From positions 1 to 50,858 of IMG/VR virus record IMGVR_UViG_3300028392_001917: a stretch of DNA of 50,858 nt. One strand, written 5' to 3'. The translations under genes were made by a program, and so were the position numbers. Below are positions 4,922 through 28,083 of this stretch, piece by piece (positions within the stretch are counted from its first letter, which is position 1; each line of letters begins with the position of its first letter). Below the pieces are notes generated by a model, which saw only the letters and a program-made list of their open reading frames with translations, did no database searches and was not told the DNA's origin. The stretch is from a virus.

Positions 4922-4929
4922 TATTTATA
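4922..4929 (-). promoter_or_regulatory. T4-type late promoter box TATAAATA
   Basis: Exact match to the T4 late promoter consensus read by the gp55-type sigma factor. It ends seven bases before the ATG at 4914 and contains the TAA stop codon of the upstream bilin reductase gene. In T4, transcription starts about six bases after the box, which would leave almost no 5' leader. Confidence 0.75.
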
Positions 4930-5596
4930 CTACTTCTGGAAACAATACTTCACGTACAAATCTCTTGATAACAGGTTCTGCCACACCCATGCTAACCATA
5001 CTGCGTATAACATGTGGATTCTGCTTTTGATAGTGACAATAACGATTCTGCGCCATATGATAATCCGCTGCATCTTGCTGCGTATTTCCTACGTTTTTTA
5101 CATAATAATCTAAACTATCCAGGGCTAATTGACATAAATCGTCGAGTTCTTTGCCTTCTTGTACATTACCCGCAGCAACCATGTTATCGCTAAAGATGTT
5201 ACGTGCCCATTCCGGAAGTTCTCTAGACTTTTGCCATCCGTATTTTTTAGTCTCAATACCAAACCAACGCATCATGTCATGGTTAGAATCACCTGCTGAA
5301 CTGAAATCACAGAAAGCACCTGTGATCTTATTAGGTCCACATACAGCATCAAATCCCCAAATTGGACTTGGATCGTTGAAATGTGGGAATATGGTACAAT
5401 GTAATATATAGATTTTGTGAGTTTCTCTATTATCTACAATTTCTATATGTGCTCTACGATAACGTGGACTTGACCAAAGTTGATTATGCCAGTTATAGTC
5501 TGTGCCCACGGTGCTATCTATAGGTTCACCTGTAGTATTGAATCGATCTTCAATCTGTTTGGCTAATTGCTCAATTTTGTTCCAAACTACTGTCAT
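4925..5596 (-). CDS. pcyX: Ferredoxin-dependent bilin reductase (PcyX/PebS-like)
   Basis: 223 residues. The segment HCTIFPHFND, PIWGFDAVCGPNKITGAF and CDFSS is the signature of ferredoxin-dependent bilin reductases (PcyA/PebA/PebB/PebS/PcyX), with the conserved catalytic-region Asp at GFD (about residue 83). These reduce biliverdin IXalpha to phycobilins. PcyX is the variant described from oceanic phages outside cyanobacteria, paired with a heme oxygenase as here. The ATG lies inside the end of the heme oxygenase gene (26-base overlap), so the two are co-translated and act in sequence: heme to biliverdin to bilin. The subfamily label rests on context, not alignment. Confidence 0.85.
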   Translation of the reverse strand: MTVVWNKIEQLAKQIEDRFNTTGEPIDSTVGTDYNWHNQLWSSPRYRRAHIEIVDNRETHKIYILHCTIFPHFNDPSPIWGFDAVCGPNKITGAFCDFSSAGDSNHDMMRWFGIETKKYGWQKSRELPEWARNIFSDNMVAAGNVQEGKELDDLCQLALDSLDYYVKNVGNTQQDAADYHMAQNRYCHYQKQNPHVIRSMVSMGVAEPVIKRFVREVLFPEVV

Positions 5597-6116
5597 ATGA
5601 TTCCATTATTTTAATTGCCCATTCAAAGGCTATATTGGCTTCAACAGCCATATCGTCTGACAACATGGTACGTACAGTTTTAATTAACTCGGCACGATCT
5701 TCAAACTCTAAATGTGTATGTGGTGCTTCAACAATCTTCTTGATCATTTGTCCACCATGCAAGTCGCCCATGTGCCATGTATAAAGATGTGCCATAACAC
5801 GAGTAGGATCACCTAATGTTCGTATATAACTAACATACTCTTTGGTCACTTCTTTATAGGTATTGAAACTGCCTACAGGTTTATCCATGGCTTCGTAATC
5901 ATCCATGATTAATCCTGCACGTTCAAAGCCCGGCGGCAATGCATTTAACAATCCTGCTTTACGAGCAGCATGTTCAATTTCTTTATACCAAAGTTGTTTT
6001 TGATATGTAAAGTCTACCCATACATCATAGGGTAGAGTTTTGGCAAATACCGCTTTCATAAAAAGGGTATCTTCCGCTTTTTGATGTTTATCAGCGGTTA
6101 AATCTTTTAGGCTCAT
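5571..6116 (-). CDS. Heme oxygenase
   Basis: 181 residues. The proximal heme-ligand region is visible as TADKHQKAED (His11), and the distal helix motif as HMGDLHGGQMI (about residues 116-125; usual form GDLSGGQ). The enzyme opens heme to biliverdin IXalpha, CO and Fe2+ using ferredoxin-type electrons in the cytoplasm. Product and neighbour agree: the bilin reductase gene overlaps its 3' end. It follows clpS after nine bases. Released iron could also feed the diiron ribonucleotide reductase and rubrerythrin encoded in this window (inference). Confidence 0.92.
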   Translation of the reverse strand: MSLKDLTADKHQKAEDTLFMKAVFAKTLPYDVWVDFTYQKQLWYKEIEHAARKAGLLNALPPGFERAGLIMDDYEAMDKPVGSFNTYKEVTKEYVSYIRTLGDPTRVMAHLYTWHMGDLHGGQMIKKIVEAPHTHLEFEDRAELIKTVRTMLSDDMAVEANIAFEWAIKIMESYDSSLEQN

Positions 6117-6125
6117 AGTAGTTCC

Positions 6126-6431
6126 TTATTCGGGTTCTACTTTAATTATCAAAGGATACCCCTGTGCTCTGGCTAAATTGGTTCCGTCAACAGCTTTTTG
6201 TTCTGCTACTTCAAAACTATAAATTCCTGCCACAGCACTACCTTTATTATGTATTGCCAGAGTTAATGCAATAGCAGACTTTTCATTATGCTTGAATATT
6301 GACACAAGCATGGCAATTACAAATTCCACAGAAGTTTGATCATCATTACACACAATGACTTTATACTTGCTGGGTTCTTTAAGTTTGGCAGTAGTCTTAG
6401 ACTTTTTGTCTACAATGATATCAGTGGTCAT
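6126..6431 (-). CDS. clpS: ClpS adaptor of the ClpA/ClpAP protease
   Basis: 101 residues. A short charged leader is followed by the ClpS core: YKVIVCNDDQTSVEFVI, with the N-D-D-x-T motif that recognises N-terminal destabilising residues, then IHNKGSAVAGIYS and AEQKA. ClpS hands N-degron substrates to ClpA. No ClpA is seen in this window, so the phage protein probably redirects the host protease. It lies between hsp20 and the heme oxygenase gene in one transcription unit. Confidence 0.9.
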   Translation of the reverse strand: MTTDIIVDKKSKTTAKLKEPSKYKVIVCNDDQTSVEFVIAMLVSIFKHNEKSAIALTLAIHNKGSAVAGIYSFEVAEQKAVDGTNLARAQGYPLIIKVEPE

Positions 6432-6468
6432 AATCTTATTTTATAGAGGGGGCCGAAGCCCCCAAACT

Positions 6469-6903
6469 TTATTCGCCCTTGAGTTTAAGGACACGTGGTT
6501 TCAAAGCATCAGGAACGATACGCTTTAATTTAATGGTAAGCACACCATTCTTGATAGTTCCATCTCCAACTTCCATATGTTCAGCTAATGTCCAGCTACG
6601 TGTAAAGTCTCGGAATGCAAGTCCACGATGTAAAAATTCAGCAGTTACATCATTGCTTTTATCTCGAATGCCTTTGACAATGAGTTGATTTTGATCAATC
6701 TCAACTGTAACTTCGTCCTTAGCAAACCCTGTAACAGCAATTTCAATCTCGTAAGAGGTGTCGTCGTGTTTAATAATGTTGTAAGGGGGATAGTTGTCTT
6801 TAAGTTGATTTGCAAAACGATGTTCAAAATCTTCAAACATTGTATCAAATCCCAGAAGTGCTCTGTTGAGAGCGTTGGTGTCGAAACGTACTAATTGTGT
6901 CAT
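6469..6903 (-). CDS. Small heat shock protein, Hsp20/IbpA family
   Basis: 144 residues with the alpha-crystallin domain of IbpA-type chaperones: YEIEIAVTGFAKDEVTVE, LIVKGIRD, FLHRGLAFRDFTRSWTLAE and NGVLTIKLKR. It binds unfolding proteins and holds them for DnaK. It has its own sigma70-like promoter (6987-7016), a GGGCATAGTGCCC inverted repeat shared with dnaK exactly 31 bases before the ATG, and an AAAGGAG ribosome binding site. T4-like phages often carry such a protein. ClpS follows directly. Confidence 0.93.
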   Translation of the reverse strand: MTQLVRFDTNALNRALLGFDTMFEDFEHRFANQLKDNYPPYNIIKHDDTSYEIEIAVTGFAKDEVTVEIDQNQLIVKGIRDKSNDVTAEFLHRGLAFRDFTRSWTLAEHMEVGDGTIKNGVLTIKLKRIVPDALKPRVLKLKGE

Positions 6904-6986: not shown

Positions 6987-7016
6987 ATTATACAGTCTCT
7001 TGAACGTCGGCTGCAA
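6987..7016 (-). promoter_or_regulatory. Sigma70-like promoter for hsp20
   Basis: TTGCAG, an 18-base spacer and TATAAT on the minus strand, overlapping the last codons of dnaK. The -10 box is perfect; the -35 box matches four of six positions. It lies upstream of the hsp20 leader repeat. Confidence 0.5.
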
Positions 7017-8889
7017 CCACGCCATCTTCCGCATCTTTTTTAGCCTGTTCTTCAGCTTTTTTAGCTGCTTCTTCGGCTTCGTGCTTCTTGGCTGTAATTG
7101 GACCCATTGCTTGATAAAGTTTTGGAACGCTGTCTTGAATGATTTTAGGATCATCACCTTTGATAGCATCACGAATTGCCTGTGCTGCATCGTCGGCATT
7201 GGCCTTTTCTTCTTCAGTAACTTGATCACCAAACTTATCAATATCTGCTTGGAATTCATTTAGGGTAGATTCTGCGCTATTACGTGCTTCAATAAGCTCA
7301 CGTAGTTTCTTATCTGATTCGGCATTAGCTTCGGCGTCTTGAACCATACGTTCAATTTCGTCTTTGCTAAGTCCGCTATCGGATTTGATAGTGATCTTAT
7401 TTTCTTGGCCGGTGCCTTGATCCTTGGCACTAATATTCATAATACCATTGGCGTCAATATCCAAAGTAACTTCAATTTGCGGAGTACCTTTACGTGCTGG
7501 AGGAATTCCACTTAATTTAAATTCACCAAGCAATTTATTGTATTGAACAAAATCACGCTCTCCCTGGAATACTTTAATATCCACAGCAGGTTGATTGTCT
7601 TCGGCTGTACTAAACACTTGACTATGTTTGGTAGGAATGGTTGTATTCTTTTGAATCAACTTAGCCATTACACCGCCCTGTGTTTCAATACCAAGACTTA
7701 GTGGAGTAACGTCCAGCAATAGAACGTCTGTACGTCCACCACCTAATACGTCACCCTGGATAGCAGCACCAGCGGCAACTGCTTCGTCTGGGTTAACATC
7801 CTTACGTGGTGCCTTGCCGAATAGTTTCTCAACTGTTTCGATAACCTTAGGCATACGTGTCATACCACCGACTAAGATAACTTCGTCGATGTCGCTGGCA
7901 GTAACACCTGCATCTGCCATAGCAGTTTTGCAAGGCTCAATACTACGTTGGATCAACTCGTCAACAAGCTGTTCCAACTTCGCACGAGTGATCTTAACAT
8001 TCATATGTTTAGGACCACTTGCGTCTGCTGTGATGTAAGGCAAGTTAACATCTGTTTGTGCTGAACTTGACAATTCAATCTTAGCTTTCTCAGCAGCTTC
8101 TTTCAAACGCTGGAGTGCCAACATATCCTTCTTAAGATCAACGCCGTTGTCTTTCTTGAATTCATCGACCAAGAAATCCATAATACGTTGGTCAAAGTCT
8201 TCACCACCTAAGAATGTATCACCGTTAGTAGATAGAACTTCAATTTGTTTGTCGCCATCAACGTTGGCAATTTCAATAATAGATACGTCAAATGTACCAC
8301 CACCTAGGTCATAGACAGCAATCTTACGATCACGCTTGTCTGCTTTATCCATACCATAGGCAAGAGCAGCGGCAGTTGGTTCGTTGATAATACGTAGAAC
8401 TTCAAGTCCTGCGATTTTACCAGCATCTTTAGTTGCTTGACGTTGCTGGTCATTGAAGTAAGCAGGTACGGTAATAACTGCCTGTGTAACTTCATGTCCA
8501 AGATAGTCTTCAGCTGTGAGTTTCATCTTACGAAGAACTTCGGCTGAAATTTGTGGAGGGGCAAGTTCTTGATCATTTGCACTAACCCAAGCATCACCAT
8601 TGCTGGCTTCGATGATTTTGTAGGGCATTAGATCAATGTCCTTCTGCACAGCTTGTTCTTTAAACTTACGTCCAATTAGACGCTTGGCTGCATAGATTGT
8701 ATTTTTTGGATTAGTAACTGCCTGGCGTTTTGCACTGGCACCTACAAGGATTTCATCGTTAGCATAGGCAATAATACTAGGAGTAGTTCTTGCACCTTCG
8801 CTGTTTTCGATTACTTTGGGGATACCGTTTTCAATAACGGCTACACATGAATTGGTTGTACCGAGATCGATACCGATTACTTTACTCAT
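6988..8889 (-). CDS. dnaK: Hsp70 chaperone DnaK
   Basis: 633 residues, full bacterial length. The N-terminus [20 protein letters not shown], the phosphate motif [14 protein letters not shown], the adenosine motif [11 protein letters not shown], the interdomain linker [13 protein letters not shown] and an acidic C-terminal tail are all present. It is an ATP-driven folding chaperone. No DnaJ or GrpE is seen in the window, so it presumably uses host co-chaperones. Expression is from its own consensus sigma70 promoter at 8972-9000, with an inverted repeat in the leader and an AAAGGAG site. A phage-encoded, apparently intact DnaK is uncommon. Confidence 0.97.
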
Positions 8890-8971: not shown

Positions 8972-9000
8972 ATTATAGATAGATCATGTATCTGTGTCAA
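8972..9000 (-). promoter_or_regulatory. Consensus sigma70 promoter for dnaK
   Basis: TTGACA, 17-base spacer, TATAAT: a perfect match to the bacterial housekeeping consensus on the minus strand. The -35 box overlaps the end of the upstream small gene, so dnaK is uncoupled from the operon above it. Confidence 0.85.
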
Positions 9001-9262: not shown

Positions 9263-10068
9263 TACAAATCAAATACCAATGTACTATTAATTTTAGGAGT
9301 AGGTGTAGGTTCCACATCCATACTTAGTAGATCGCCTACTACACGGCTGCGATTTCTGACATTAGTTTGCCCGAGTACAACTACTCCGAATAGCTCTTTA
9401 TTTTTTTCCACTAACATAAGCACACAGCGTCCCGCTGGATTGGTAAATCCAGTTTTGCTGATTAGAATATTATCGTAGACAAACATATCAGGATTAGTGT
9501 TTCTTATATTAATACGAATTGTCTTTTTACCCTTAGGTACATTTAATACCGCATTACGCTCCTTGGCTATTTTTCTAATCATCGGTTCATCTTTAATCTT
9601 ATACAGGAATTCAATGAGTTCTCGAGCAGTACTTTTATTGCCTTCTTTAAGTCCGGTACTGTCTACAATAATGGTATTTTCTAATGTTAAATCTTTTACA
9701 TAGTTGTTAACATCAAATAAGAATTTATCAAACCCGCCTGGATGATGATAGGCCAATGTTTCTGCTGCTCTATTATCACTACTGATTATCATGGATCGCA
9801 TTAGATCCACACGAGTCATATATACACCTCTGGGTACATGTCCGCCACTACGGCCATCAACTAATATTTTCTCATTAAGATCAACACCACTACGTATAAC
9901 GGTCATAGCAGTAAATAATTTTGTAATGCTGGCTATGCTACGTACCTCCATATGATTATATCTCATAACATACATGGCCGCGTTATAATCATATAAAGCA
10001 TAGGATCCAGTTTGCCCATATGCTGCCAAGGACATTAGCATCGAAAGTATAATAAAGAGTTTTTTCAT
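9262..10068 (-). CDS. D-alanyl-D-alanine carboxypeptidase/endopeptidase (PBP7-like)
   Basis: 268 residues. A signal peptide (MKKLFIILSMLMSLAAYGQT) is followed by the serine peptidase S11 motifs: SITK (S-x-x-K nucleophile), SDNRAAET (S-x-N) and SKTGFTNPAG (K-T-G). These enzymes trim or cut peptidoglycan cross-links in the periplasm; PBP7/PbpG is the closest type. In a phage it may loosen the wall for lysis or remodel it during infection. It overlaps the preceding small gene by four bases. All catalytic motifs are intact. Confidence 0.88.
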   Translation of the reverse strand: MKKLFIILSMLMSLAAYGQTGSYALYDYNAAMYVMRYNHMEVRSIASITKLFTAMTVIRSGVDLNEKILVDGRSGGHVPRGVYMTRVDLMRSMIISSDNRAAETLAYHHPGGFDKFLFDVNNYVKDLTLENTIIVDSTGLKEGNKSTARELIEFLYKIKDEPMIRKIAKERNAVLNVPKGKKTIRINIRNTNPDMFVYDNILISKTGFTNPAGRCVLMLVEKNKELFGVVVLGQTNVRNRSRVVGDLLSMDVEPTPTPKINSTLVFDL

Positions 10069-10265
10069 ATGGAGTATTTAAGTGCAAAGAAGGTAGCGTA
10101 TTTGTCTTTATGGAAAGCAAATATTGCATGTTTTGGCATATTGTATTCAGTAGATCTCACATAAGTAAACTCAAAGTCAGTACCTTGTATCATTCCTTGT
10201 TGTCTTAACTCGCGAACTATTTCTATAGTTCTTGAGGCATCTATATATAAGGTAACTGTTTTCAA
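10065..10265 (-). CDS. Small protein, divergent member of FxLRWS-type family, TTG start
   Basis: 66 residues. The start is a TTG at 10265: it overlaps the upstream stop (TTGA) and is preceded by GAGGT at proper spacing. The C-terminus HAIFAFHKDKYATFFALKYSI matches the pattern of its neighbours (aromatic strand, charged turn, then TMFILRWS). Function unknown; it is the most divergent array member before the peptidase gene. Confidence 0.6.
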   Translation of the reverse strand: MKTVTLYIDASRTIEIVRELRQQGMIQGTDFEFTYVRSTEYNMPKHAIFAFHKDKYATFFALKYSI

Positions 10266-10549
10266 GAATACCTCAATATGAACATGGTCACATCTTTTTC
10301 GTCCTTGAAATAAAACTTCTTATCTTTCTCAAACCAACGTGCTCCGCTCTTGCCAAAGTGTTCTCTACACCAATCCATAGCAGGAGTGACTATATCGTCG
10401 TATTTGTTTTTATCAGTAACAGGTAGTGATACCCAATGATATTCACCAAGCCAACTTTTGGCCTTGCCTTTTTTCATTGGAGAAAGTTCAGGCTCCAATG
10501 TGACACCATTAAATGGGCTTGTATTAAAAACAGGAATTGTTGTTGCCAT
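10262..10549 (-). CDS. Small FxLRWS-family protein
   Basis: About 95 residues from the ATG at 10549, which shares a base with the upstream stop (TAATG). The C-terminus KKFYFKDEKDVTMFILRYS matches two other family members nearly residue for residue. The middle contains WCREHFGKSGARWF, like the AWAIEHFG and WCWQQWG segments of related genes. No known domain. The codons of the final LRYS supply the GAGGT ribosome site of the next gene. Confidence 0.7.
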   Translation of the reverse strand: MATTIPVFNTSPFNGVTLEPELSPMKKGKAKSWLGEYHWVSLPVTDKNKYDDIVTPAMDWCREHFGKSGARWFEKDKKFYFKDEKDVTMFILRYS

Positions 10550-10770
10550 TATGACCACCTTAATATAAACATAGTGTAATCTTTATCTTCGTTCCAAATA
10601 CACCATTCAAAATCATCATCAACTAAAATATTAAATTTACCTAACAATTCTCTTGATACCGCCCTAGTTCTTTTTTCTTGCGGCAATTCCATCATATCAG
10701 ACACTAATGGGTCCAATTGCCTTAGTAGCCTTGAAAAATTATTTAGTTCATGATATGGAGTTTTAATCAT
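10549..10770 (-). CDS. Small FxLRWS-family protein
   Basis: 73 residues from the ATG at 10770, which overlaps the upstream stop as ATGA. The C-terminus is DFEWCIWNEDKDYTMFILRWS. The final codons (AGG TGG TCA TAA TG) contain the Shine-Dalgarno-like AGGTGG and the overlapping start of the next gene. Function unknown. Confidence 0.7.
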   Translation of the reverse strand: MIKTPYHELNNFSRLLRQLDPLVSDMMELPQEKRTRAVSRELLGKFNILVDDDFEWCIWNEDKDYTMFILRWS

Positions 10771-11069
10771 GACCACCTCAATATAAACATAGTACGATCA
10801 CGTTCATCACGGAACCAATACTTACGATCACTGCCAACCCATCGAGCATTTTCTTTGAGCCAATCAGATTCTCCCATAGTATCCGCCATCCACTCACCCA
10901 TCTCATACCACTCTCCGGTATCATAGTTGTATGGTCGAACCCAATAGGGCCATTTGGGTTGATTGTCAGCATGGCCAGTTTCAAGGCGTTTCATGTTGAT
11001 TTCGTTTATCCATTCGTCGGCTAATTCGGATAACCATCTATCTTCAGCCATAGCACGTTTCTTAAGCAT
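10767..11069 (-). CDS. Small FxLRWS-family protein
   Basis: 100 residues, or 94 if translation begins at the second Met (11051). Trp-rich, with WLKENARWVGSDRKYWF followed by the shared end DRTMFILRWS. It overlaps the upstream gene by eight bases. The terminal codons again form GAGGTG four bases before the next ATG. Function unknown; a paralogue of the two genes downstream. Confidence 0.7.
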   Translation of the reverse strand: MLKKRAMAEDRWLSELADEWINEINMKRLETGHADNQPKWPYWVRPYNYDTGEWYEMGEWMADTMGESDWLKENARWVGSDRKYWFRDERDRTMFILRWS

Positions 11070-11316
11070 TAATCATTGTTCCAGAGTGTTCTACGGTGAG
11101 ATCATTGTCGGGTACAATAGGAGCATTCCACATCAGGGCCATCATTAATGCGTCTTTGTTGCTGTTGAAAACAAAGTCCATATAGTTGACATTGGCATGA
11201 CTTTGGAATCTATCACCGGGCAGGCCAAAATGTTCAATGGCCCAGGCACATACATCGGTCCATCGTTGCTCATTATCAAACTCACGACTCCATGATATGC
11301 GTACAGTACTTGACAT
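11062..11316 (-). CDS. Small protein, probable distant FxLRWS-family member
   Basis: 84 residues. It shares the middle motif CAWAIEHFGLPGDRF (compare CREHFGKSGARWF) and an aromatic strand plus FNSNKDALMMALMWN where relatives have FKDEKDVTMFILRYS, then a C-terminal extension. The ATG shares a base with the upstream stop (TAATG) and GGAG precedes it. Function unknown. Confidence 0.6.
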   Translation of the reverse strand: MSSTVRISWSREFDNEQRWTDVCAWAIEHFGLPGDRFQSHANVNYMDFVFNSNKDALMMALMWNAPIVPDNDLTVEHSGTMINA

Positions 11317-12801: not shown

Positions 12802-13080
12802 TTATGTCCATTTAAGCAGGAACCATTGATATTCTTTATCAGTGGCAAAATAAATTCTTACCGTTTTTTGATTGTTAATCCAACACCACTGAGTGTTTGG
12901 ATCAGTAATTTTGTAAATAAATTCGTAGTCATCACTGGCACCCCATTGCTGCCAGCACCATTTTCTAATATCACAGAACAGTTGATGCTCTTTATAAAAG
13001 AAATCAGCACAGTACTTATACTTAGAATGACCATTCATTCGCCGATCAACTTTTTTGTGCTTCATTTTATTATTATACAC
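12802..13080 (-). CDS. Small FxLRWS-family protein, first gene of the operon
   Basis: 92 residues (or 87 from the second Met). It has KWCWQQWGASDDYEFIY, a Trp/Tyr strand and the C-terminal DKEYQWFLLKWT, aligning with the DxTMFILRWS ends of the 10-11 kb genes. The promoter -10 box ends only a few bases upstream, so the leader is very short for the first ATG. Function unknown. Confidence 0.65.
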   Translation of the reverse strand: MYNNKMKHKKVDRRMNGHSKYKYCADFFYKEHQLFCDIRKWCWQQWGASDDYEFIYKITDPNTQWCWINNQKTVRIYFATDKEYQWFLLKWT

Positions 13081-20673: not shown

Positions 20674-21561
20674 TTAGAAACTGTATTCGAAACCAGCACC
20701 ATAACGTGTGGTATCAGTGGCAGCACTCTCTTTCAAATAACGTGCAAGTACTTTGGTGTTTTTACCCAAAGCATAATTTGCACCTAAGTTATAAGACTTA
20801 AGAGCACCATTCTCACCATAACTAGCCATTGCGGTTAGTGTAGGAGTTACTGTTTGGTTTACACCAACGCTCTTACCTTGGTTTGCTACAGTGGCTACTT
20901 TGCTATCGGAATATAATCCAAAAACAGTTGTACCAGTTTTGGCAAGACTAAACTTAGCACCATAAACATCAGTTGTGCTGGTTAAGCCGTTGTCATAACG
21001 AGCCCAGGTAGCAGCAACAGGTCCAGTGGAATAAACCAAACTAGCAGTGTATGGATTTGGAGTACCAGCAACTTCACTGTTAGACAATTCATACTTACCT
21101 ACAAGTCCTTGAACAAGTGTAGCAGATACAAATACTGTATTGCTCATACGTGTTCCTTGATAGGAGTGAATAGTGGCAGCACTGGAACCATACAAATCAC
21201 CACCCATGGCATCGAATGCATCAAGTGATTTAGTTAGGGCAGTCTTATCGCGGCCAAGTCCAATGGATCCAACTTTGTTTGATAAGCCAACGAGAGATAC
21301 ACGATCTCCGAGTGTAGTAGCTGCTGGAGCATCAACACCTACGTTGGCTTCGACTGTGACAAATGCAGTCAAACCATTGCCAATGTTGTCGCTGGCTTTG
21401 ATACCGATACGGCTTTTGTCATTGGTTAAAGATGTTACAGATGCTGCTGTGCCGACAGTAGATGATTCTTCATAGACACGAGCCATTCCGTAAACGGAGA
21501 CATCGGCTTGGGCGAATCCCATTAGGCCGATTGATAATGCAAATATTGCAAGTTTTTTCAT
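20674..21561 (-). CDS. Outer membrane porin
   Basis: 295 residues from the ATG at 21561, chosen because AAAGGAAA precedes it and a clean signal peptide follows (MKKLAIFALSIGLMGFAQAD). The mature start VSVYGMARVY, the segment SRIGIKASDNIGNGLTAFVTVEANV, VGLSNKVGSIGLGRDKTAL and the final aromatic YSF are classic for Gram-negative trimeric porins (16-stranded type). A complete host-type porin in a phage is unusual; it may change nutrient uptake or block receptor use by other phages (inference). Own promoter and terminator. Confidence 0.9.
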   Translation of the reverse strand: MKKLAIFALSIGLMGFAQADVSVYGMARVYEESSTVGTAASVTSLTNDKSRIGIKASDNIGNGLTAFVTVEANVGVDAPAATTLGDRVSLVGLSNKVGSIGLGRDKTALTKSLDAFDAMGGDLYGSSAATIHSYQGTRMSNTVFVSATLVQGLVGKYELSNSEVAGTPNPYTASLVYSTGPVAATWARYDNGLTSTTDVYGAKFSLAKTGTTVFGLYSDSKVATVANQGKSVGVNQTVTPTLTAMASYGENGALKSYNLGANYALGKNTKVLARYLKESAATDTTRYGAGFEYSF

Positions 21562-21605
21562 ATTAAAATTTCCTTTAGTTTTGTATAGTCTAGAAGACAT
21601 ACTAT

Positions 21606-22190: not shown

Positions 22191-22325
22191 TTATGTTGTT
22201 AATTCTTCGTAATCAGCTTTACCTACGCCGCATTCTGGGCAGCAGAAGTTATCATCAAGATCTTCCCAAAGACCTTCAGTTTCTTCATCGTGGATGTGAC
22301 CACATACTATGCAAACGTGTTCCAT
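22191..22325 (-). CDS. Rubredoxin-like protein, separate from rubrerythrin
   Basis: 44 residues from the ATG at 22325, which shares its first base with the rubrerythrin stop codon (TAATG). CIVCGHIHDEE and NFCCPECGVGKADYEEL are the two Cys knuckles (C-x-x-C-G and C-P-x-C-G) that bind one iron, with a shorter loop than typical rubredoxins. It transfers electrons, most simply to the diiron rubrerythrin encoded directly upstream, which lacks the C-terminal rubredoxin domain usual in that family. Confidence 0.88.
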   Translation of the reverse strand: MEHVCIVCGHIHDEETEGLWEDLDDNFCCPECGVGKADYEELTT

Positions 22326-22774
22326 TATAGTTTCTCCAATACTGCTTGATATGCTTGAGCATGACGCTGCTCTACCTTTTGTAGTGCGGAGAAACGTTTC
22401 TCCGCTCGGGCCAATACTGCTTTAAATTGTTCAGCATGTTCTTTGCTTTCTTCAATTTGCTCATCAATTGTTTCTAATACATTTAATGTTCCTTCAATAA
22501 TGGCATCATTTCTAAAAGTTGGATACATTGTAGTGAACTCATATGTTTCACCTTCAATGGCTTTTTCCAAACATTCTTTAGTTGATGGCTTACCGATCAA
22601 CAATTCCAAATGACCCCATGCGTGAAGCAATTCTTGGTCTGCTGTATGTTCAAAATGTTTAGCAACTTCTTCAAACCCCTCAGCGCGAGCAATACGTGCA
22701 AAGTATCTATATTTGACATGTGCTTGGCTTTCTCCGGCCAATGCATCTTCTAAATTTTTAATAGTAATCGACAT
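22325..22774 (-). CDS. Rubrerythrin, diiron domain only
   Basis: 149 residues, all helical. Iron ligands are visible in four helices: ALAGESQAHVKY, HTADQELLHAW, AIEGETYEFTTMYPTF and DEQIEESKEHAEQF. Rubrerythrins reduce hydrogen peroxide. The C-terminal rubredoxin domain is absent and instead encoded by the next gene, so the enzyme is split in two. Own promoter at 22798-22826 and an AAGGAG site. Confidence 0.92.
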   Translation of the reverse strand: MSITIKNLEDALAGESQAHVKYRYFARIARAEGFEEVAKHFEHTADQELLHAWGHLELLIGKPSTKECLEKAIEGETYEFTTMYPTFRNDAIIEGTLNVLETIDEQIEESKEHAEQFKAVLARAEKRFSALQKVEQRHAQAYQAVLEKL

Positions 22775-24275: not shown

Positions 24276-26804
24276 TTATTTGTATTGCATATCAATCATT
24301 TGTTTATGCAAACTATCACTACTCATTTGTCTTAATGCTCGAGCATTATCAACCACTGTTTGTCCCTTATAAACTTCTTTGGGTTCATAAAAGGCTGCAT
24401 CCCTTAATGCAACACTATATACTTCAAACCCTTTTGGTTGTAGGGCCATTGATGCAATATCAACGCTGCCTGCTAGATCATTTGGTTGTACATTTCTATT
24501 AACTGTACTGGTTTGTTGTTGTATATTTTCTTGCATCATTTCAAAACGTTGTTGCATTAAATCCGATAATGGACTACCTGCACGAGCATTTCCAAAACTG
24601 GCTATTTGTATTGCAGGTACTTCTACTTCATTTACTTTTGTTTCATTGCGTAGTTGATATGTAGAGGCAGATTGTACAGTTGGTTGTGTATTGGCAGAAC
24701 TTGCTACATTGAATAAGTTAAGTCCAATTGGATTATTTTTCCCAATAACTAACCCAGCACCACTATTGGATTGGGCAGTACTTTCTGGTATTGGCGGTGC
24801 TGGCGGTTTTAACATACTTGAACTGCTGACTGATGTATCTTGTTGCTGAACATTGATATTAGATGACATCATTGATAATGTGATTACTCCAGATGCTGCT
24901 TGTTGTACTTGTTGAGTTTCCTGTGCTTGTTGTGTGGCACGATAAGAATTATTTGATTGTCCTTGTTGACCAGACGACTGATTAAACTGTTGAGTTTGTT
25001 GCATTGTTGTCTGTGATGTTCCTATAGATGCTTGAGTTGATTGGCTAGAAAACTGTGCTGCGGCTGCTGCACTATTAGCACTCATATCATTTAATGATGC
25101 AATGGCTGCGGCTGCCGTAGCCTGTGATTGCTGTGTAGATCCTTCTACTATTCTAGCAGCATTTTGTACCGCCATCTGTTGTGTGGCTTTATCTCTCTCT
25201 TGCGCGGCTCTTGCTACACTTAATGCGGCACTTGGAGTCATTCTAGGACCGTCGGCTTTACTTGGACCTGCTTGCTGTGGCCCAGAACTTGTAGGCGGTG
25301 CAGACTGTGCTGTCTGTGGAGGACCACCTGCTGGTTGCGGAGTTGTAGGTGCTGGTCCTGCTTGTTGTGGATTAGGCTGTGCTGGATTATCTTGTGCTAC
25401 CACTGGATTCTGATTTGGATCTTGTCCAGTACTTGCCGACTGTTGTTGCGGTGATTGCTGGGCGGGTTGCTGTTGTGCTTGTTGTTGTGGTTGTGCAGGA
25501 TCAGGACTTGCTAATGCTGGTGCAGACTGTGCTACTTCTGGAGATGCCGCTGCTGGTGCAGGCGCTGCTGGGGCGCTGGCACTTGCTACAGTTGAACCTA
25601 AGATCATATTTTTAGCATAGGCAACGGCATAACCAGGGCAAGTGGTACTTGACAAAGGATTAGTCACACACGGGTCTGGTTTATAAAGAGCATTAACATA
25701 CATATTTTGAATTGCCGCATTACCCGATGTACTAGCACCTAGTGTAAAATTACCTAATGATAATGAATTTGTTGTACTGGCAAGTAAGAACTGATATGAA
25801 ACATTTTCAGCAGTATTAGGAGTATTTCTACTTTGTGTGGCAGTATAAATTACATCATTGCTACTGTTGGTTAATCGTACTCTCATAGTAGCATTTGGAT
25901 TGTTAGTTAAGTAGGCGCCGCAGGTAAAAGCATTATCCCAACTTACACATTCGTTGGTCCTTGTACCATTGCCTAAACTATAATTATAACCATAGTTGAA
26001 ACCGTATACTTCAACACCTGCTCCAGAACTTTTAAGTGCTGTATTGATAGCAAATGAATTGTAAACTATATCACCGTTGGACATTAAATTTGAATTTACT
26101 AAATTACCACTAGTGACTACGCTACTAAATCCTGAGCAATTAGGACTGTATGCAGGATTAAGACTACAAGGATCAACTCGATATTTCAAACTAAAACTAA
26201 CGTTGGTAATTTCTGGACCATAATTACCAGCCCAAAAGTTATTGTCCTTACCAACAAAGCCAACTCGTGCATTGCTATAGTTTGTAGCCGCTATAGGATT
26301 GGCAAATGTTTCACTAAAGTTGAAATCAGTCCAGTTGTATTTGGCGTTAGTATGACTTAGGTAATCATATGCGGCAACCTGGGTACCGGCGGTATTATAA
26401 AACTTAACATAAGCATCTAAGTAATCTTGCCTACCGTCATCCCAGCCGTTGCCGTTTTTAGCACGAAATCCAAAATTAAAACCACTTAGTTGTACTCCTG
26501 TACCACCTGCGGCCAATGCTCGATTTATATTAACAACTTGATTTAAGTCTATTTGACCATAACTGAAATTGATACTGCCGTCGGGTCTAACACTGGGCTT
26601 AGGGCCGCAATTGCCAGGTTGGCCAGCCTGGAAACATATTTGACTAACGTACACACCATTGTTCCAAATGCTGGTTGTATCTGTAGGTGTAGTACCGGTA
26701 TTGATTAAATTACCGGTAGTAGGATCAACAGTTTGGGCTTTAGAATGACTTATAAACGATAGCGCCAAGCAAAGCACCAAGGCCCATTTTAGTATACGTG
26801 TCAT
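24276..26804 (-). CDS. Large secreted protein with duplicated domain and Gln/Pro/Ala-rich region
   Basis: 842 residues. A signal peptide (ALVLCLALSFISHSKAQ) is followed by two related domains (about 30-220 and 235-375). Both contain GAG/GTGV-x-(L/V)-x-GFN-(F/Y)-G-(F/Y) and end in a DPC-x-x-NP-x5-C-x-G(Y/F) motif. Residues about 400-640 are low-complexity Pro/Gln/Ala/Ser; the C-terminal 200 are more ordered. The start overlaps the upstream gene by 65 bases and is preceded by GAGG. Probably extracellular or periplasmic. No known function. Confidence 0.72.
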   Translation of the reverse strand: MTRILKWALVLCLALSFISHSKAQTVDPTTGNLINTGTTPTDTTSIWNNGVYVSQICFQAGQPGNCGPKPSVRPDGSINFSYGQIDLNQVVNINRALAAGGTGVQLSGFNFGFRAKNGNGWDDGRQDYLDAYVKFYNTAGTQVAAYDYLSHTNAKYNWTDFNFSETFANPIAATNYSNARVGFVGKDNNFWAGNYGPEITNVSFSLKYRVDPCSLNPAYSPNCSGFSSVVTSGNLVNSNLMSNGDIVYNSFAINTALKSSGAGVEVYGFNYGYNYSLGNGTRTNECVSWDNAFTCGAYLTNNPNATMRVRLTNSSNDVIYTATQSRNTPNTAENVSYQFLLASTTNSLSLGNFTLGASTSGNAAIQNMYVNALYKPDPCVTNPLSSTTCPGYAVAYAKNMILGSTVASASAPAAPAPAAASPEVAQSAPALASPDPAQPQQQAQQQPAQQSPQQQSASTGQDPNQNPVVAQDNPAQPNPQQAGPAPTTPQPAGGPPQTAQSAPPTSSGPQQAGPSKADGPRMTPSAALSVARAAQERDKATQQMAVQNAARIVEGSTQQSQATAAAAIASLNDMSANSAAAAAQFSSQSTQASIGTSQTTMQQTQQFNQSSGQQGQSNNSYRATQQAQETQQVQQAASGVITLSMMSSNINVQQQDTSVSSSSMLKPPAPPIPESTAQSNSGAGLVIGKNNPIGLNLFNVASSANTQPTVQSASTYQLRNETKVNEVEVPAIQIASFGNARAGSPLSDLMQQRFEMMQENIQQQTSTVNRNVQPNDLAGSVDIASMALQPKGFEVYSVALRDAAFYEPKEVYKGQTVVDNARALRQMSSDSLHKQMIDMQYK

Positions 26805-28083
26805 CTATTTTTTCCTCTTCCACTGCTGGAACTTTTTCTTTGTTTTCTTCCCAGGCTAGTTTGGCTTGTTCGCCAATCTTACCTTCGTATGGGCAAGGTG
26901 TTCCTGCTGCCATCATAGCATCAAATATACGACGGTCTTGACACATAGTAGCCACCGCTGCTACCTTCATACCCATATCATATAATGTTTTGGCCAACTT
27001 CAATCTTTCGCAATTTAGATCACGTATGGTACCACCACCACTTACGCCGAAGATCTGTGTCTGTACACTGCCACTGGATCCTGTGGTACATAGATCACCA
27101 TTGCCGCCACTCATCATTGATGGTGCAACTGCTGTAGGTGGAGGTTGAATAACACGCTGTGTGATATCGCTGGTATTAACATTGTTATTAGTCATTGTAC
27201 CACTGTTGATATTTTGATTAACATTATTGTTAGAATTGGTGCTAGCACTGGTAGATGAGTTAACATTGTTATTATTGTTGGTCATACTACCACTTTGAAC
27301 GTTGTTGTTAGTCATCGTACCACTGTTGATATTGGTATTAACATTATTACTAGTTGATGAATTTTGATTAACATTGTTATTATTGTTGGTCATCGTACCA
27401 GAATTAATGTTAGTGTTGGTACTAACATTGGTGTTGACATTGTTATTATTATTGGTCATTGTACCTGTGTTAACATTGTTATTTGTATTAACGCTGGTGC
27501 TAGAGTTAACATTATTATTGTTATTGGTTGCGGTACTTGTACTAGCATTATTATTGTTGTAGGTCATTGTACCAGTATTAACATTATTATTTGTATTAAC
27601 GCTGGTGCTAGCGTTGACATTATTATTGTTGTAGGTCATTGTACCTGTGTTAACATTGTTATTTGTATTAACGCTGGTACTAGTACTGGTGTTGACATTA
27701 TTGTTATTGTTGGTCATTGTACCTGTATTAACGTTATTGTTGTTAAATGTTTGAGTTCCACTATTAACGTTATTGTTATTGTTGGTATACGTAACTGACC
27801 CTGACATAACATTATTGTTATTATTGTTGTTGGTCATTGTACCCGTATTAACATTATTATTGTTATTGGTATTAACACTAGTACTACCAACTGTAGTTTG
27901 ATTAATATTGGTTATGGTACCACTATTAACGTTATTGGTATTAATAGTACTTGTGCTGTTAGATGTACTATTGGTATCTACTAAACTTTTAGAATCATAA
28001 CCACCTTGGTTAATTACAGTTTGCGCCCAAACTGTAGATATAAAGAACATGGCCGCTAACCATAAAAGAATTTTTTTAAACAT
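26740..28083 (-). CDS. Secreted asparagine-repeat protein, likely beta-solenoid or fibre
   Basis: 447 residues. Signal peptide MFKKILLWLAAMFFISTVWA, then about 290 residues built from roughly a dozen units of the form N-N-N-N-V-N-(T/S)-G-T-M-T, almost only Asn, Val, Ser, Thr, Gly and Met. A Cys-containing globular part follows (CERLKLAKTLYDMGMKVAAV and MCQDRRIFDAMMAAGTPCPY), and a short hydrophobic end GLGALLGAIVYKSF. Regular Asn/Thr repeats suggest a stacked beta structure or amyloid-like fibre on the surface. A hairpin with the ribosome site in its loop precedes the ATG. Confidence 0.75.
   Translation of the reverse strand: MFKKILLWLAAMFFISTVWAQTVINQGGYDSKSLVDTNSTSNSTSTINTNNVNSGTITNINQTTVGSTSVNTNNNNNVNTGTMTNNNNNNNVMSGSVTYTNNNNNVNSGTQTFNNNNVNTGTMTNNNNNVNTSTSTSVNTNNNVNTGTMTYNNNNVNASTSVNTNNNVNTGTMTYNNNNASTSTATNNNNNVNSSTSVNTNNNVNTGTMTNNNNNVNTNVSTNTNINSGTMTNNNNNVNQNSSTSNNVNTNINSGTMTNNNVQSGSMTNNNNNVNSSTSASTNSNNNVNQNINSGTMTNNNVNTSDITQRVIQPPPTAVAPSMMSGGNGDLCTTGSSGSVQTQIFGVSGGGTIRDLNCERLKLAKTLYDMGMKVAAVATMCQDRRIFDAMMAAGTPCPYEGKIGEQAKLAWEENKEKVPAVEEEKIDDTYTKMGLGALLGAIVYKSF

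Follow-up and report, generated by a model that had tools for sequence, protein, structure and literature searches.

Why would a phage carry a heme oxygenase (HO) and a ferredoxin-dependent bilin reductase (FDBR), and what would it do with the product? We addressed this in a 50,858-base virus record, hereafter the window, which denotes the whole stretch of DNA analysed. The initial annotation had described overlapping HO and FDBR genes carrying the motifs HxxAE, GDLHGGQ and GFDAVCGP. Both open reading frames are present on the minus strand (Table 1) with an overlap of 26 bp, both match their Pfam families above the cut-off, and their translations contain HQKAE and GDLHGGQ (HO) and GFDAVCGP (FDBR).

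Table 1. Features of the bilin gene row in the window, with the basis for each call.
Feature	Position	Strand	Basis
FDBR (ferredoxin-dependent bilin reductase; PcyX-side lineage, PcyA-type active site E52, I64, H66, D83)	4925-5596	-	PF05996, nearest structure 5owg, residues, trees, fold
HO (heme oxygenase; proximal His11, distal GDLHGGQ with Asp118)	5571-6116	-	PF01126, HmuO alignment, phage alignment, fold
ClpS, adaptor of Clp protease	6126-6431	-	PF02617, E = 8.1e-25
Hairpin GGGGGC-TTCG-GCCCCC, GC-rich, between hsp20 and clpS	6448-6463	-	Stems at same place in relatives, sequences differ
Hsp20 small heat shock protein	6469-6903	-	PF00011, E = 3e-15
DnaK (Hsp70)	6988-8889	-	PF00012, E = 3.3e-255
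Candidate promoter TTGACA-17-TATAAT, 12/12 consensus bases	8972-9000	-	Sigma-70 consensus match, ~110 nt before dnaK

The 223-residue FDBR matches Fe_bilin_red (PF05996) at E = 2.4e-19 (70.4 bits, cut-off 31), and the 181-residue HO matches Heme_oxygenase (PF01126) at E = 2.4e-13 (50.8 bits, cut-off 23). Exo_endo_phos_2 was set aside as an identity for the FDBR, having scored below threshold (22.8 bits vs 27.4). H11 and D118 of HO align with H20 and D136 of HmuO, and H11, D118, G121 and G122 are invariant across 26 phage rows. AlphaFold models, built template-free from phage-only alignments, reached a mean pLDDT of 90.6 for FDBR and 93.8 for HO. Foldseek returned PcyA and PcyX as top matches for the former (best E 2.5e-12) and heme oxygenases in the PDB for the latter (best E 1.9e-7). 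HmuO has 215 residues against the 181 of HO, whose model is confident along nearly its entire length. Compared with five relatives, dN/dS was 0.07-0.16 for FDBR and 0.05-0.31 for HO, which indicates purifying selection on both. An inactive reductase, which the initial annotation had named as one finding that would undo its proposal, is not what the sequence suggests: the catalytic residues of the FDBR are intact. Pfam matches, predicted folds, catalytic residues and low dN/dS together therefore make HO and FDBR look like working genes, not chance open reading frames.

Among solved structures, the nearest to the FDBR is PcyX (5owg, E = 4e-48), followed by PcyA (4e-12); PebS gave no match at E 1e-3 in this sequence search, and its fold match in Foldseek was weaker than those of PcyA and PcyX. 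The FDBR is matched by 21 of 50,697 phage records, the best being Pelagibacter phage Mosig (41%) and the others cyanophages (24-28% identical), and by none of the plasmids in a plasmid collection. A scan of viral contigs returned 72 loci, 71 of them with a usable FDBR. Together with the window, two PDB fragments, Mosig, P-SSM4 and two loci from metagenome-assembled genomes (MAGs), these gave 78 rows, of which 56 remained after removal of 97% copies. In the reductase phylogeny, a check that the initial annotation had proposed, a 100/100 branch separates the window FDBR, on the PcyX side, from PcyA, whose side consists of two rows on long branches and includes no alphaproteobacterial (AX-clade) PcyA. 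The window FDBR belongs to a 22-row clade (100/99) in which the residue at PcyA position 76 is Glu in 21 rows and His in one.

The two MAG loci came from a scan of genome contigs and both have Asp at position 76. These PcyX-like genes (L076, L077) sit on contigs binned to MAGs titled Neomarinimicrobiota and Rickettsiales, and their origin may be phage or bacterial. Among 385 genomes from a single class, three had a PF05996 match, two of them above the cut-off; the Rickettsiales MAG itself is one of these two.

At PcyA positions 76, 86, 88 and 105, by contrast, the window FDBR has Glu, Ile, His and Asp, the residues of PcyA. Glu52 stands in the place of the PcyX catalytic Asp55, a correspondence with PcyA position 76 that we infer from the structure-search alignment, allowing for the chain-numbering offset. 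The initial claim that the pair fits the PcyX group thus holds for overall sequence and tree side but not for the active site, where Glu replaces Asp55 and Ile, not Met, occupies position 86. As stated in the text of PMC10151467, PcyA depends critically on Glu76, His88 and Asp105, the first of which is PcyA-specific and needed for 18-vinyl reduction. The corresponding text of PMC9800206 describes Glu76, Ile86, His88 and Asp105 as highly conserved in PcyA, with Ile86 near Glu76 and Asp105. Synechocystis PcyA (2d1e) has Ile86; the PcyA of cyanophage P-SSM4 has Val86.

Across the 56 dereplicated rows, positions 88 and 105 are always His and Asp, and positions 76 and 86 read Asp-Met in 25 rows, Glu-Ile in 22, Glu-Val in 3, Ser-Leu in 3, and His-Ile, Asn-Met and Lys-Leu in one each. 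Asp always occurs with Met, and Glu with Met was never seen. Of the 27 distinct rows that make up the chaperone-linked group described below, 21 have Glu at 76, with Ile at 86 in all 21; outside that group, all 24 Asp-type rows carry Met. Among the remaining relatives, a bilin reductase 68% identical to that of the window (L027:8001-8669) has His at catalytic position 76, while Ser occurs in L026 and L030-L032, Asn in L072 and Lys in L071. When columns 76 and 86 are left out of the tree building, the resulting tree requires at least six changes at 76 and at least five at 86, counts that do not separate gain from loss, and forcing the 25 Glu rows into one clade is rejected (AU p = 0.0027); the Glu rows therefore do not form a single clade. 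Since there are just two well-supported independent pairs, the coupling of 76 with 86 is not significant by sign test. Val at 222 and Ser at 225 set the window group apart from PcyA rows and PcyX rows alike, and the 76/86 pair may therefore not set the product alone.

Which bilin would this enzyme make? The main text of PMC11480375 reports that the HO of freshwater phage CB_2 yields biliverdin and that its PcyA/X yields phycocyanobilin (PCB), which the authors attribute to the absent Asp55. Given the PcyA-type active site and the CB_2 precedent, we think it likely that the window FDBR makes PCB and not the phycoerythrobilin of PcyX, and that the joint product of HO and FDBR is probably a blue-green pigment. 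Against this stand the overall sequence and the tree, which place the FDBR with PcyX. None of the 21 phage records that match the FDBR is named CB_2, whose enzyme may therefore lie outside the window's group. An enzyme that is PcyX in function, makes phycoerythrobilin and tolerates Glu for Asp55 would fit both its closer similarity to PcyX than to PcyA and its separation from the two PcyA rows by the 100/100 branch, but it sits poorly with the PcyA pair Glu/Ile, given Met86 in 24 of 24 Asp-type rows outside the group, and with the PCB yielded by a phage FDBR lacking Asp55 (PMC11480375, main text); we regard it as unlikely. Somewhat less likely still, the FDBR may halt at a two-electron intermediate or give a mixture, and serve to draw biliverdin away from HO. 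The range of residues at 76 (Glu, Asp, Ser, His, Asn or Lys) beside constant 88 and 105 speaks for such an enzyme, as do other bilins or mixtures reported for pre-PcyA enzymes in the text of PMC10151467 and a possible intermediate left by CB_2 (PMC11480375, Fig. 6 legend). Low dN/dS and the prevalence of Glu in the group (21 of 27 distinct rows, each with Ile86) argue the other way.

If the predicted 76/86 rule behind the PCB reading holds, it offers a simple sequence guide to which bilin each phage makes. A broader proposal is tentative, and we would sooner doubt it than adopt it: phages of non-photosynthetic hosts may have adapted a single bilin reductase to different bilins several times over, through a switch of two residues (Glu-Ile, Asp-Met, Ser-Leu, His-Ile, Asn-Met), one large group having built the pathway into a chaperone/proteolysis operon that would serve phage proteostasis and heme turnover, not light harvesting. 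The products of some variants with Ser, His or Asn may be bilins that no phage is yet known to make.

The bilin genes close a conserved row. The initial annotation's placement of the pair with ClpS, Hsp20 and DnaK was borne out by Pfam, and on the minus strand the window reads dnaK-hsp20-clpS-HO-FDBR from upstream to downstream. In a survey of 71 loci with the window HO, ClpS, Hsp20 and DnaK as phmmer queries (E 1e-3), the order hsp20-clpS-HO-FDBR on one strand recurred in 32 related contigs (L002-L032, L072), representing 26 distinct FDBRs at 97%. DnaK directly precedes hsp20 in 15 of these 32, as it does in the window, and HO overlaps FDBR in 31, the exception being L028, where they lie 568 bp apart. 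The other 39 loci (L033-L071) held no hsp20, clpS or dnaK within the stretches searched, some of which are short or cut by a contig end; the window HO as query found an HO in 14 of them. The text of PMC7674155 describes Hsp20 as widespread in related phages, including those without pmoC, so the adjacency of HO-FDBR and chaperones may be positional.

Sequence signals suggest that a single strong promoter of the host type probably drives dnaK-hsp20-clpS-hemO-fdbr. A perfect sigma-70 consensus lies ahead of dnaK (Table 1), and a consensus-match count found a site of at least 11/12 within 250 nt before the first gene (dnaK or hsp20) in 20 of 32 relatives (16 of 26 distinct), leaving 12 of 32 without one. 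Promoter-like sites showed no overall excess in the gene-row region (19 found vs 21.4 expected). The whole window holds nine sites of at least 11/12, all on the minus strand, which is also the coding strand of most large open reading frames. Five of these are perfect, with a spacer of 16 or 17 (50331, 28589, 16759, 13100 and 9000); the plus strand has none.

Between hsp20 and clpS, 26 of 27 distinct gaps contain a stem of at least six pairs, with folding z-scores of -1.1 to -4.7. Stem length does not stand out, being often equalled by shuffles of the same short gap (61 of 100 in the window). Stability does: among 36-mers tiled on the same strand, a median of 0.2% fold at least as stably (33 sequences), with a worst case of 17% in L028, whose gap is 63 nt and whose tile misses part of the stem. 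The hairpin may act as an attenuator or mRNA-end protector that sets the dosage of the chaperones relative to clpS-HO-FDBR.

We turned to the rest of the window and its relatives for the nature of the phage and host. The phage is probably large and T4-like. A Gp23-type capsid protein scored above the cut-off in 4 of 45 records, the window not among them; within the chaperone-linked set it was found strongly in the 322-kb record G014 and as a weak fragment in G028. AlaS occurred in 14 of 47 records, and in 9 of 33 of the chaperone-linked set counted with the window, itself without AlaS. An AmoC search matched 0 of 45 records, and as no control genome matched either, this does not establish the absence of pmoC. 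The window has no tRNA, and its bases 1-25000 have no near DNA match among phage records. The initial annotation had left host prediction to the rest of the genome, which gave a weak hint. Among plasmids, the one collection searched for both proteins, DnaK shares 67-72% identity with its proteobacterial counterparts in 15 listed rows, including Neisseria, Burkholderiales, Acinetobacter and E. coli, and the porin has three matches, all Cupriavidus, at ~30%; the closest ribonucleotide reductase among the matches listed is from a Xanthomonas phage. These matches weakly point to a proteobacterial, possibly betaproteobacterial, host, probably a heterotroph although the evidence is weak. The porin, a Gram-negative type (Porin_4), is phage-encoded at 20674-21600 (-).

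Other parts of the minus strand hold further genes of note. Mostly overlapping open reading frames of 66-100 residues fill 10065-11316 and 12802-13080, several with similar ends (TMFILRWS, MFILRYS, WFLLKWT), and look like a family of small paralogues. A rubrerythrin-like protein (PF02915) at 22325-22774 is a possible peroxide- or iron-handling gene, and a 447-residue protein at 26740-28083 consists mostly of asparagine-rich repeats such as NNNNNV and NTGTMT.

Is the bilin, then, made for light? The initial annotation had seen no photosynthesis genes alongside the pair, and reaction-centre genes were indeed not found in the window and 32 related records (0/33). Light harvesting of the cyanophage kind, with a cyanobacterial host whose phycobilisomes the bilin would feed, has related genes in cyanophages in its favour. 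The cyanophage FDBRs are just 24-28% identical, however, phycobilisome profiles reached the family cut-off in none of the 33 records, the weaker hits in four of them lying in frames of 756, 756, 1670 and 2199 residues, and in the plasmid collection the best DnaK rows include Neisseria and Burkholderiales and the best porin matches are in Cupriavidus; we consider this reading very improbable. A role as light-sensor ligand, compatible with the chemistry proposed here, is improbable to a lesser degree. PCB would replace biliverdin in a bacteriophytochrome of the host and shift host light signalling during infection, which would account for a reductase beyond HO and has a parallel in the CB_2 enzymes, which fed PCB to phytochrome Cph1 (PMC11480375, main text). 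Yet a phytochrome PHY domain was found in 0 of 33 phage records, and the chaperone context gives no pointer to light.

Taken together, the best explanation is a large phage, probably T4-like, that infects a heterotrophic and probably proteobacterial host and whose chaperone-HO-FDBR row turns heme into a bilin, a reading to which we assign a probability of roughly 0.6. By the standard chemistry of its family, HO would open heme to biliverdin and release iron and CO, and FDBR would reduce biliverdin by four electrons, most likely to PCB. The electrons would come from host ferredoxin, since a Fer2 (2Fe-2S) ferredoxin was found in 0 of 45 records; these records are fragments, and a ferredoxin or photosynthesis gene may lie beyond them. 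The pathway may serve iron release, the clearing of heme and biliverdin while host proteins are broken down, or the supply of a bilin ligand; by sequence, the antioxidant, signal and iron-release roles raised in the initial annotation are all conceivable. The role we favour, though at less than even odds, is the processing of heme that host haemoproteins release as infection breaks them down or remodels them, which would supply iron and clear heme and biliverdin alongside the chaperones and a ClpS-guided protease. The constant association with Hsp20, ClpS and often DnaK speaks for such a protein-turnover setting.

Known bilin reductases of phages differ from this system to varying degrees. PebS of cyanophage P-SSM2 shares the FDBR fold and the presence of a phage HO in its genome, but is not reached by sequence at E 1e-3 and is a weaker fold match than PcyA or PcyX. 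Cyanobacterial and cyanophage PcyA share Glu76, His88 and Asp105 with the window, with Ile86 in Synechocystis and Val in P-SSM4, whereas the cyanophage enzymes are 24-28% identical and occupy a separate side of the tree. The PcyX of marine phages (5owg; Pelagibacter phage Mosig) lies on the same tree side as the window FDBR, and HO adjoins FDBR in Mosig, but the residues at 76/86 are Asp/Met against Glu/Ile. The Mosig pair neighbours a 2OG-Fe(II) oxygenase, ferrochelatase and neck genes, not chaperones as in the window. A putative ferrochelatase is annotated in Mosig (L074:2252-3022) a few genes before HO and the PcyX-like gene, and this phage may therefore both make and open heme. Two records outside the chaperone-linked set (L080, L081) match 5-aminolevulinate synthase, in each case with a single reported in-frame TGA.

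Aquatic phages with an HO+FDBR cassette have already been published, as has a phage FDBR that makes PCB, that of CB_2, placed between PcyX and PcyA (Wegner 2024, main text of PMC11480375). By that published description, CB_2, a large freshwater phage whose host is not a cyanobacterium, resembles the window in carrying HO+FDBR, and its FDBR, like that of the window, stands between PcyX and PcyA and lacks Asp55; PCB was shown for CB_2 alone. CB_2 differs in having alaS and being a pmoC-phage, neither of which was detected in the window fragment, the AmoC search being one without a matching control. The strings 'clp', 'hsp' and 'chaperon' do not occur in the main text of PMC11480375, supplements and figures aside, and we found no description of a phage HO linked with hsp20, clpS or dnaK in the open-licence literature. 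Beyond the published cassettes, then, the window adds PcyA residues in a PcyX-side FDBR and a fixed chaperone gene order, and this order with hsp20, clpS and often dnaK provides a concrete lead on how phages use their bilin genes.
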